Source: Mycoplasmatota bacterium
Lineage (GTDB): Bacteria; Bacillota_I; Bacilli_A; Izemoplasmatales; Hujiaoplasmataceae
NCBI GenBank assembly: GCA_016342455.1
Contig: JAEIOE010000008.1
Location: forward strand, 1 to 56,394
Length of the DNA: 56,394 bases
Direction of reading: 5' to 3'
Shown here piece after piece: positions 52,751 to 55,852 of this stretch; position 1 is the first letter of the stretch, and each line of letters starts with the position of its first letter. The translations under genes and the position numbers were made by a program. The notes under the pieces are model-generated. The model ran no database searches. It was given only the letters and a program-made list of their open reading frames with translations, and was not told where the DNA came from.

Positions 52751-52782
52751 AAAAAAAAGAAAAGGAAGAATTTATCTTCCTT
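52751..52782 (-). terminator. Terminator overlapping the rsgA stop codon
   Basis: The last rsgA codons (AAAGGAAGA TAA) form one arm of a stem with TCTTCCTTTT, followed by T8 on the minus strand. Confidence 0.85.
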
Positions 52783-53746
52783 TTCCAAGTCTTTTATCAA
52801 GCATTCTTTCTCTTTCTAATTCTCTATTTTTGTTGAATCTACTTATTCTTAGTGCTTTATTGTATTGTTTATATCGTTCAATATCCAATTTTCCTGTGTC
52901 AATAGCTCTTAAAACCATACAACCAGGTTCATTATCATGTGAGCAATTCTTAAATCGACAGCCCTCACTCAAAGATTTTATATCCTCGAAACTTCCTTCA
53001 TCTACAAAATAGGAAGAGATAATTCTAATTCCAGGTGTATCGATTACCTTTCCGCCGTTCTTTAGTGTAACTAACTCACGGTGTACAGTTGTATGTCTAC
53101 CTTGAGCATCTGATAACCTAATCTGAGAAGTTTCAAAGTGTTCCTCAGCTAAAAGTTTATTTGTGATGCTTGATTTTCCTACACCACTACTGCCAATAAA
53201 TACAGCTATTTTATCTTTGATGAGTCCCATTAGTACATCTATATCTGACTCATCATATACTGTAATTGGATAAATATCATTATCCGTTACTTCTTTTGTT
53301 TTTTGAATAAAGAACTCTATGTTATCACAAAGGTCCTTCTTTGTCAGTAAGATAATTGTCTTAAAGTTACGATGATAAGTTAAAGATAAAAAATCTCTTA
53401 GCTTCTTTGTATTAAAATCTTCATTTAAAGATAAACAAATAAACACAATATCAATATTAACAGCTAGTATTTGCCTTCCGACAATTGCGCCGTTATTGGT
53501 ATCTGATCTATCTAAAACAGATTTTCTGACTTCTATCTCTTCTATAATACCTAAATAATCATCTGCTTTTCTAAAAGCTACATAATCTCCAATCTGTGGA
53601 TAATCTGATCTATCATAATGAATATACTGAAACCTACCACTTACCTCACACAATATTTTTCCTTCTTCAAATTCAACTAAATACCTATCTTTATAGACAG
53701 TTATTACTTGAGCTCTAATAAGAGAATTACTGTTTTGCTTGCTCAT
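52772..53746 (-). CDS. rsgA: Ribosome small-subunit-dependent GTPase RsgA
   Basis: 324 aa. An N-terminal OB fold (VITVYKDRYLVEFEEGKILCEV) is followed by a circularly permuted GTPase (LLTKKDL as G4, FIGSSGVGKSSI as G1, IDTPGIRIIS as G3) and a zinc knuckle (CRFKNCSHDNEPGC). Acts in late 30S maturation, releasing RbfA and checking the decoding centre. RBS AAAGGGTG. Preceded by a leader-peptide attenuator (53774-53952), an unusual level of control for this gene. Confidence 0.96.
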   Translation of the reverse strand: MSKQNSNSLIRAQVITVYKDRYLVEFEEGKILCEVSGRFQYIHYDRSDYPQIGDYVAFRKADDYLGIIEEIEVRKSVLDRSDTNNGAIVGRQILAVNIDIVFICLSLNEDFNTKKLRDFLSLTYHRNFKTIILLTKKDLCDNIEFFIQKTKEVTDNDIYPITVYDESDIDVLMGLIKDKIAVFIGSSGVGKSSITNKLLAEEHFETSQIRLSDAQGRHTTVHRELVTLKNGGKVIDTPGIRIISSYFVDEGSFEDIKSLSEGCRFKNCSHDNEPGCMVLRAIDTGKLDIERYKQYNKALRISRFNKNRELERERMLDKRLGKGR

Positions 53747-53774
53747 TCTATATCACACCCTTTCTTAAAAGACT

Positions 53775-53856
53775 GATACATCACTTGCAAACAAAAAGGA
53801 CCACAAATGGGTCCTCAAAATTATATAAACAAGGATTATTTGCAAGTAGATGTATC
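53775..53856 (-). promoter_or_regulatory. Transcription attenuator in the rsgA leader
   Basis: Terminator: AGGACC/GGTCCT (53810-53815 with 53797-53802) followed by T5 on the minus strand. Antiterminator: CAAATAATCCT (53832-53842, spanning the leader ORF's last codons) pairs with AGGACCCATTTG (53804-53815), which would occupy the terminator's 5' arm. An outer stem (53839-53856 with 53775-53791, 16-17 bp) closes the whole. A ribosome finishing the leader would cover CAAATAATCC and allow termination; one stalled earlier would leave it free and allow readthrough. Confidence 0.7.
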
Positions 53857-53889
53857 TATTAAATTTGTAAATCTTATCACATTTTTCAT
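53836..53889 (-). CDS. 17-aa leader peptide upstream of rsgA
   Basis: MKNVIRFTNLIDTSTCK, too short for standard gene calling. RBS AAGGAGTGG is 7 nt before the ATG and a consensus promoter is 35-60 bp upstream, so it is transcribed and very likely translated. Its last codons lie in the antiterminator arm. Positioned as in the leader peptides that control erm, cat and similar genes. Confidence 0.7.
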   Translation of the reverse strand: MKNVIRFTNLIDTSTCK

Positions 53890-53923
53890 AATACACCACT
53901 CCTTTTCTTGTGTTTCTAACATA

Positions 53924-53952
53924 ATAATAACTTAGTCTATTTAATTTGTCAA
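53924..53952 (-). promoter_or_regulatory. Consensus promoter of the rsgA leader
   Basis: TTGACA (53947-53952), 17-nt spacer, TATTAT (53924-53929) on the minus strand. Transcription should start near 53917, about 28 nt before the leader ATG. Confidence 0.8.
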
Positions 53953-53997: not shown

Positions 53998-54876
53998 TTA
54001 CTTAATAAATTCACATATCTTTTCAACTAATACATCTGGACAATCCACTAATGGGCTATGTCCTGATTTCTCTAGTTTTACTTTCTTAGCATTTTTTAAA
54101 GCAGCTACTGTTTCATCTACCATATATTCCAATACGACAATGTCATTTTCACTCCAAAATGAAAGAACAGGACAAACTACATCTTTAATAGTACCATCCC
54201 CATCAGTAACACCGTTAAATTCATTTGACATATTGAATCTAGTTAACGCATAATCAACATCAACAATACATCTTTCCTTCATTGTTTCTGCTAAATATAA
54301 ATCATCTTCTTCTTTTGTTGGTTTATTCACTGTATAAATCAATTGATCCCATACTGCTTTCATATAAGCTGTCGCACCTGATTTAAAAATACCATCCATT
54401 GAAGCTACTTGAATAGGGTCAGCCGCAACTTCTGCTTTTGAACTGTAATGTTGACCAACTAAAGGTTGACCTTGTGCATCTTTTCTAAAGATTGGGTATC
54501 CTTTGTAAGAACATGATTCAATTAAGATTACTTTTTTGGCTTCAAGTGGTCTCTTGGCAGCTATTTTTAAAGCAACAGCTCCTCCAGTTGACCAACCAGC
54601 GATAAAGTAGTCATGAACATCTAGTTTATCTAACAAAATTAAAAGGTCATCTGTTAATTCTTCTAAGTCATTGTATTCATTGTTGTAAGTAGAATCTCCA
54701 AAACCTCTCATGTCAGGAGCAATAATTCTATATTGATCCTTTAGTCTTTCAATTATTGGTTTATAGTGAATCCCACTACTCATATTACCATGTACCAATA
54801 CTAGGGTTTCTTTTCCTTTACCTAAGTCTAGATATGCAAGTTTTTCTTTACCGATATCCATAAATTTCTTTTCCAT
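53998..54876 (-). CDS. Alpha/beta hydrolase
   Basis: 292 aa. Nucleophile elbow GWSTGG (Ser), oxyanion HGNMSSG, acid in WSENDIVVLEYM and His in KSGHSP. Single-domain carboxylesterase/haloperoxidase-like fold; substrate unknown. GGAGG RBS before the ATG. Confidence 0.9.
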   Translation of the reverse strand: MEKKFMDIGKEKLAYLDLGKGKETLVLVHGNMSSGIHYKPIIERLKDQYRIIAPDMRGFGDSTYNNEYNDLEELTDDLLILLDKLDVHDYFIAGWSTGGAVALKIAAKRPLEAKKVILIESCSYKGYPIFRKDAQGQPLVGQHYSSKAEVAADPIQVASMDGIFKSGATAYMKAVWDQLIYTVNKPTKEEDDLYLAETMKERCIVDVDYALTRFNMSNEFNGVTDGDGTIKDVVCPVLSFWSENDIVVLEYMVDETVAALKNAKKVKLEKSGHSPLVDCPDVLVEKICEFIK

Positions 54877-54979: not shown

Positions 54980-55010
54980 AGAAAACATCAAGTTTCAATC
55001 ACTTGATGTT
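54980..55010 (-). terminator. Terminator of the adenylyltransferase operon
   Basis: AACATCAAG/CTTGATGTT stem, followed by TTTTC on the minus strand. Confidence 0.75.
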
Positions 55011-55852
55011 CACTTAACATATGTATTTATTTTTTCTTTACAGTAATTTAGCATATCCTCTTCATGTTTGAAAGGATATGTAAAGTTTAATTTTTTCGCA
55101 ATATAAGTCCCAAGATAATGAACTAAGTCATAACTTGCAAATAAGGCTTTTACACAATTCTCTTTATTTGAATCAGGATAAGTAGCTAATAACATATTCC
55201 ATTCTTTATCTGTGAGATATCTTTTAAAGTATCTCCCAATTAAACCGGTATTTACTTTAAAGTCATGTTTTATTCCTATATACCATTCAATTAATTTATG
55301 AAGTTTCTTTTTTAAAACTTGTTCCATATACTTTTCAAAAAACATTTCATCTCTAGCCAATGCTTTTACCACATAACTAGAATCAAAGAAAAAAGTATTT
55401 ATTCTCTCTAAAAATTCAACTTCTGTAGGCTTTTTAACATAAAATTTAGATTCATCAGTAACTAAAGGTTTAGGGATAATATTATCTTTATCTACATAAA
55501 CTTTATATAGTTCCATCTCATTTGCATAAATAGCAGCTTTAATGGAAGCGAAGCCAAAATCCATTTTAAAGCCATCATCAAATAATGTTAATCTTGTATA
55601 CCATTTTACATCACCTGAAATGACTCCATCATCATGATAAAAAGATATTGGAATACCGAAGTGTTTCTTCCAATCTGTATGATCTATAAACTCCGATAAA
55701 TCTCTGACATAAAACAAAGGATCTAAATCACTAAAATCATCCATTGGAGCGTTGTCATTCACAAAAGAGCCTTGTAACACAAGGGCTCTTATGTTTTCGT
55801 TATTTTTGGCAAATGCTATCAGTTTGTTTAATTCAACTTGTAAGTCTCTCAT
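55010..55852 (-). CDS. ANT(6)-like aminoglycoside adenylyltransferase
   Basis: 280 aa. N-terminal nucleotidyltransferase fold with GSFVNDNAPMDDFSDLDP (G-S...D-x-D) and a second acid in FKMDFGFAS, then the ANT(6)/AadE helical C-terminus (WYIGIKHDFKVNTGLIGRYFKRYL). Relatives adenylylate streptomycin; chromosomal versions may have other roles. Its start overlaps the stop of the upstream membrane-protein gene. Confidence 0.83.
   Translation of the reverse strand: MRDLQVELNKLIAFAKNNENIRALVLQGSFVNDNAPMDDFSDLDPLFYVRDLSEFIDHTDWKKHFGIPISFYHDDGVISGDVKWYTRLTLFDDGFKMDFGFASIKAAIYANEMELYKVYVDKDNIIPKPLVTDESKFYVKKPTEVEFLERINTFFFDSSYVVKALARDEMFFEKYMEQVLKKKLHKLIEWYIGIKHDFKVNTGLIGRYFKRYLTDKEWNMLLATYPDSNKENCVKALFASYDLVHYLGTYIAKKLNFTYPFKHEEDMLNYCKEKINTYVK

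Follow-up and report, generated by a model that had tools for sequence, protein, structure and literature searches.

In attenuators of the ermC/ermB type, leader segments 1:2 and 3:4 pair in the off state, and early stalling of a ribosome in the leader allows the 2:3 pairing that turns the gene on. The hflXr gene of Listeria monocytogenes, a paralogue of a ribosome-associated GTPase gene, has its own short-ORF leader (rli80) with a terminator, an antiterminator and an anti-antiterminator, and mutation of the leader start codon or Shine-Dalgarno sequence (SD) gives an off phenotype (PMC6310831). In the vmlR leader of Bacillus subtilis, a short ORF, an anti-antiterminator and an antiterminator are joined by a second layer that frees the SD of the gene in read-through RNA (PMC9226507). 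For bmrCD, which responds to several inhibitors, translation of the leader bmrB decides termination through three alternative stems (PMC4191407). Here we describe a leader of this kind ahead of a gene for an RsgA-type GTPase. We searched the literature on rsgA leaders, attenuation, uORFs, paralogues, antibiotics and the Listeria locus and found no description of the element; as far as that literature shows, leader-ORF regulation of an RsgA-type GTPase is undescribed.

The gene, rsgA2, lies on the minus strand of the window, by which we mean the whole 56,394-nucleotide stretch of DNA analysed here (Table 1). An earlier note on this DNA had claimed a promoter, a 17-codon leader ORF with an SD, a 6-bp terminator followed by T5 and a competing antiterminator (CAAATAATCCT with AGGACCCATTTG) whose 5' arm is the leader 3' end, and we observed all of these; the SD is strong. 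Of 16 relatives, 15 have a promoter with at least 10 of 12 consensus matches upstream of the leader, compared with 5.8% of shuffles. The anti-SD duplex of the leader SD scores −12.2. Two terminator-like sites were found in the region against 0.0 expected, and the intrinsic terminator stands between leader and gene, as in a ribosome-mediated transcription attenuator. The antiterminator is longer than had been stated, with about 12 pairs that include CUUGCAAAU with AUUUGUGG.

Three pairings had gone unnoticed. An inverted repeat of 19-20 bp joins the leader 3' end (53857-53836) to 53793-53774 (A:A') and shows in the minimum-energy structure, the rsgA2 start is a second partner of A', and the leader SD pairs with the leader 3' end. 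The interpretation as ribosome-mediated attenuation, which the predicted parts and their conservation bear out, was incomplete, as it overlooked half of the switch (A', B and r:A). The duplex energy of A' is −25.6 kcal/mol with A and −17.1 with B. Of 200 shuffles of the leader RNA, all but one fold less well than the native sequence. Because a terminator stands at its end, rsgA2 is probably monocistronic.

Table 1 Features of the rsgA2 locus in the window.
Feature	Position	Strand	Evidence or remark
Leader-transcript promoter, TTGACA-17-TATTAT	53924..53952	-	11 of 12 consensus matches
Segment r: leader SD AAGGAGTGG (53904-53896) and start codon; partner A	53887..53907	-	swap test, RNAalifold
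Leader ORF, 17 codons, MKNVIRFTNLIDTSTCK; ATG 53889 to stop 53836	53836..53889	-	ORF test
Segment A: leader 3' end; alternative partners r, terminator 5' arm and loop (antiterminator), A'	53832..53857	-	
Intrinsic terminator AGGACC-CATTTGT-GGTCCT and T5; hairpin 53815-53797, stem 53815-53810/53802-53797	53793..53815	-	kept in relatives
Segment A', just past the T-run; alternative partners A, B	53774..53793	-	swap tests
Segment B: region around the rsgA2 translation start, with start codon 53746-53744 and first codons	53735..53756	-	
rsgA2, RsgA-type circularly permuted GTPase, 324 aa	52772..53746	-	TIGR00157, PF03193, motifs
Terminator at rsgA2 end	52758..52786	-	12-pair stem with T-run

We assessed the pairings in 16 Izemoplasmatales-type loci by a partner-swap test, in which the duplex energy of a locus's own segments is compared with that of segments exchanged between loci (20000 permutations). 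Exchanged segments did as well as native ones in 4/20000 permutations for r:A and in 0/20000 for each of the antiterminator (A:T), A:A' and A':B. The A:T result supports the leader 3' end as an antiterminator arm, one that lies within reach of a ribosome in the leader. The control pairs r:T, r:A' and r:downstream showed no own-partner advantage. Kinship was handled only through these controls, and because they come from the same related sequences, shared ancestry alone is not the source of the pairing signal. RNAalifold selected the r:A helix unprompted. On a MAFFT alignment, column-wise covariation of r:A did not exceed that of shuffles (185/500), as the helix hardly varies there and the other arms are misaligned; the partner-swap test took its place. 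In their predicted pairings, the four segments follow the erm-type layout, with r:A and A':B in the off state against A:A' in the on state, and the fourth segment at the gene start.

Folding with a modelled ribosome predicts how these pairings respond to ribosome position. In the window, r:A and A':B are predicted to form without a ribosome, A:A' (~19 pairs) with a ribosome on codons 1-4, and A':B (~16 pairs) with a ribosome elsewhere. In modelled nascent RNA of the Izemoplasmatales group, the antiterminator has ~10 pairs at first and only 0.2 once the ribosome reaches the leader end; in that of the window, r:A and the antiterminator can coexist, so that the predicted no-ribosome state is ambiguous. 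Equilibrium folding of full leaders favoured the terminator at every ribosome position in most Izemoplasmatales, where the equilibrium probability of the terminator is uninformative about ribosome position; antitermination must therefore rest on the order of folding. Through A' and the start region, the element is predicted to control rsgA2 translation as well. The modelled accessibility of the window rsgA2 start region rises only from 0.31 to 0.39, a change equalled by 29-34 of 300 shuffles and not exceptional.

The leader is very probably a sensor of ribosome position with two outputs on one gene, and we infer its succession of steps and switching direction as follows. In the normal state, a ribosome would load on the strong leader SD, run to the stop and cover A, and with A covered the terminator would form. 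Should a transcript read through in this state, free A' would pair with the rsgA2 start and little RsgA2 would be made. A ribosome held on the first few codons would leave A free to pair first with the 5' arm and loop of the terminator, resulting in antitermination; A', once transcribed, would then pair with A and release the rsgA2 start. With no ribosome, r could hold A, and the full-length transcript would tend to the off form. The signal would be slowed or stalled translation, with no particular peptide needed.

The rsgA2 product matches TIGR00157 (142 bits) and PF03193. Its nearest solved structures are RsgA/EngC/YjeQ proteins (PDB relatives 1t9h and 6h4d), and both it and its clade keep intact G1, G3, switch and zinc motifs, as expected of a member of the RsgA GTPase family. 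The gene had been named as rsgA, which is right as to family; it is, however, not the housekeeping gene but a second paralogue, which shares 30% identity with the other RsgA of this genome. The canonical copy, at G000:C42, has no leader. A protein tree of 122 paralogues of this type and 18 canonical RsgA proteins splits into two clades with support 100, which rules out rsgA2 as the housekeeping RsgA orthologue; RsgA2 is our own label for the clade of the window protein. With the gene being a second paralogue, the proposal that the switch controls ribosome assembly cannot simply be assumed. RsgA2 occurs in 117/199 sampled genomes of one Bacillales order set and in 48/245 of a set drawn from the Clostridia class. 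Plasmid records carry it too, among them one of a Fusobacteriota species.

Several neighbouring genes were recorded. Two genes upstream of rsgA2 in the window (55010-55852, minus strand) is a relative of the ANT(6)/AadS aminoglycoside nucleotidyltransferases; its 201 bits are well below the curated cut-off of 450, and its function is uncertain. An alpha/beta hydrolase gene (53998-54876, minus strand) scores 325 bits with an intracellular short-chain PHA depolymerase model (cut-off 300), and as the end of a similar hydrolase gene precedes rsgA2 in a sister genome (L004), synteny seems to be kept. On the Lysinibacillus fusiformis plasmid pMGMM7 (L271), rsgA2 lies directly before the fosfomycin-resistance gene fosM, and no leader was seen.

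The leader layout is conserved in relatives, and the same arrangement precedes the rsgA2 orthologues. A strict search (ATG, 9-30 codons, strong anti-SD duplex, stop ahead of the gene) found a leader at 116/168 RsgA2 loci, compared with a mean of 5.0/168 (maximum 9) for dinucleotide-shuffled upstream regions; the criteria were chosen after examples had been seen, yet the gap between real and shuffled loci is very large; 52/168 loci fail them. Other genes with intergenic upstream DNA gave 1/89. Canonical rsgA gave 1/18, a spurious hit inside the upstream ORF; many sampled canonical genes sit close behind a long upstream ORF. A covariance model of the Izemoplasmatales leader, searched against 91 genomes, scored strongly only at rsgA2 leaders. 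Those of its weak extra matches (E above 5e-5) that we inspected lay ahead of unrelated genes and were discarded. The element, with its conserved parts and compensated pairings, is specific to the RsgA2 clade.

Some loci depart from this pattern. In three Clostridia loci (L035, L041, L046), a 5-codon GTG/TTG frame (VVIVR, LVIVR, LEIVL) precedes a long inverted repeat that encloses a terminator-like hairpin; because these frames escape the strict criteria, the leader count is a lower bound. Eight further RsgA2 loci (L025, L125, L129, L131, L134, L136, L204, L208) have leaders of 10-11 codons, mostly 150-350 nt upstream of rsgA2, with V-I recurring near the end (EVI, MVI, VIK), which may reflect another type of device or a genuine peptide motif. 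The Trichococcus loci L049, L054, L055, L062, L067, L072 and L077 encode RsgA2 without a recognisable leader, an apparent loss.

Outside the Izemoplasmatales, the leader is coupled to other RNA structures. In Bacillales, the sequence at the end of the leader, typically ACAGCCC, has two partners, the leader SD region and GGGCUGU within the 5' arm of a different terminator. Over 39 non-redundant loci, the r:E and E:D swap tests both gave 0/20000 with flat controls. Here the modelled terminator probability is informative about ribosome position: it is 0.91 when no ribosome is present, 0.43 for one at the first codons and ~0.9 later. We looked for a second, translational layer in the Bacillales type and did not find one. 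In Clostridia and some Bacillaceae, a leader end with GGAGG is followed by CCUCC and then by the rsgA2 SD. Swap tests on 33 loci of the Clostridia type gave 0/20000 for arm 1:2 (E:D) and 13/20000 for 2:SD (D:B); the printed means for this type include a constant contributed by a small number of loci whose segment was too short. In the model, the SD closes, on average, only with a ribosome in the second half of the leader. The leaders of Listeria monocytogenes and of a Cetobacterium plasmid read as this SD-sequestering type. At the Listeria locus (L268), between an mltG-like gene and pnp, rsgA2 has an 18-codon leader, MAIVKMENLIINTGVFYL, and the arms GGGGG/CUCCC and GCUCC/GGAGC are a compensated variant of the type.

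The main clades of the protein tree agree with device type. By sequence comparison, unrelated RNA structures with the same logic, in which a ribosome at the leader end means off, appear to stand ahead of rsgA2 across a whole bacterial phylum. All clades share a strong SD and a short open frame that ends in an arm. As a ribosome occupying the arm is predicted to turn the gene off, the leader would act as a sensor of ribosome progress.

We considered what else the leader might sense. The earlier note had proposed a search for conserved MKNVIRF-like leaders; such peptides are not conserved. Near pairs of leaders differ by 47 synonymous and 192 nonsynonymous codon changes, which is near-neutral, and the substitutions are spread 107/97/126 over the codon positions with no clear codon periodicity. 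The SD, start, open frame and stop position are conserved; the peptide is not, and no conserved arrest peptide of the erm type was found. Because the peptide drifts almost neutrally, there is probably no arrest-peptide sensor, and the signal is likely to be ribosome position. This pattern makes it improbable that the leader peptide stalls in response to a single antibiotic class, as known from erm and from rli80/hflXr with its RLR motif. The four-segment layout is erm-like, and hflXr shows that a gene paralogous to one for a ribosome GTPase can be controlled in this way (PMC6310831), but the leaders have no common peptide motif and come in many distinct lengths, from ~10 to 29 codons. RNA pairing that is better conserved than the peptide could also point to a switch that binds a protein or ligand, with an incidental ORF that does not regulate by translation. 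We regard this as highly improbable, since the frame of an ATG picked by SD strength alone stops within the 9-30 codon range in 97% of 118 loci compared with 46% of control ATGs, the SD, ORF and leader-end arm persist while the output RNA varies by clade, and the Rfam 15 covariance models gave no match at any leader in scans that covered the window region plus 21 related loci. The leader SD and open frame are strongly supported by these comparisons, and leader translation is predicted.

Leader translation might instead report the supply of initiation-competent 30S subunits, with rsgA2 on when mature 30S is scarce, forming a homeostatic loop. The strong, extended leader SD and the unconserved peptide fit such a sensor, as does the on-structure, which many Clostridia-type leaders and nascent Izemoplasmatales RNA are predicted to form also without a ribosome. 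However, a pure initiation sensor would not need the r:A helix that is conserved in Izemoplasmatales and Bacillales leaders, and full-leader folding of the window and most relatives predicts that r:A accompanies the off form when no ribosome is present. We therefore find this rather unlikely and favour slowed or stalled translation as the signal.

Under slowed translation as the signal, and because of the analogy with leader ORFs of antibiotic-response genes, RsgA2 is most likely a stress-induced 30S factor made under translation inhibition, and it would act on 30S subunits. It is possible, if on balance doubtful, that RsgA2 is a widespread, unrecognised inducible GTPase for 30S ribosome protection or rescue, induced by ribosomes held at gene starts, via an ancestral leader ORF whose output device was replaced several times (terminator; terminator and start sequestration; SD sequestration). 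For a paralogue that occurs in over half of the sampled Bacillales-order genomes (117/199) and owes its annotation solely to analogy with the housekeeping RsgA, the switch offers a direct hint of its role: it suggests that this little-studied copy is produced in cells whose ribosomes are in difficulty. A single sensor ORF would have persisted through several rebuildings of the RNA output, a natural experiment in attenuator evolution. The output in Listeria and Clostridia is predicted to be translational and would thus escape 3'-end mapping.

Canonical RsgA/CpgA (YloQ) shares the GTPase and zinc motifs with RsgA2 but belongs to the other clade, lies at a different locus and lacks the leader. 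Bacillus subtilis 168 is not known to carry an RsgA other than CpgA. Whereas erm leaders depend on drug-dependent stalling at a specific codon (PMC8274638 for ermB), the rsgA2 peptide drifts, and the rsgA2 terminator, unlike in erm, is nested between segments 2 and 3. The bmrB leader is 53 aa long with the terminator inside the ORF, and its target is an efflux pump (PMC4191407). For rli80, the ORF has the arrest motif and only transcription attenuation is reported (PMC6310831); HflX splits ribosomes, whereas RsgA acts on 30S. The vmlR leader differs in its 3-codon ORF and its target, an antibiotic-resistance ABCF, and no sequence homology was seen, but in layout and dual control it is the closest match to the rsgA2 leader (PMC9226507).
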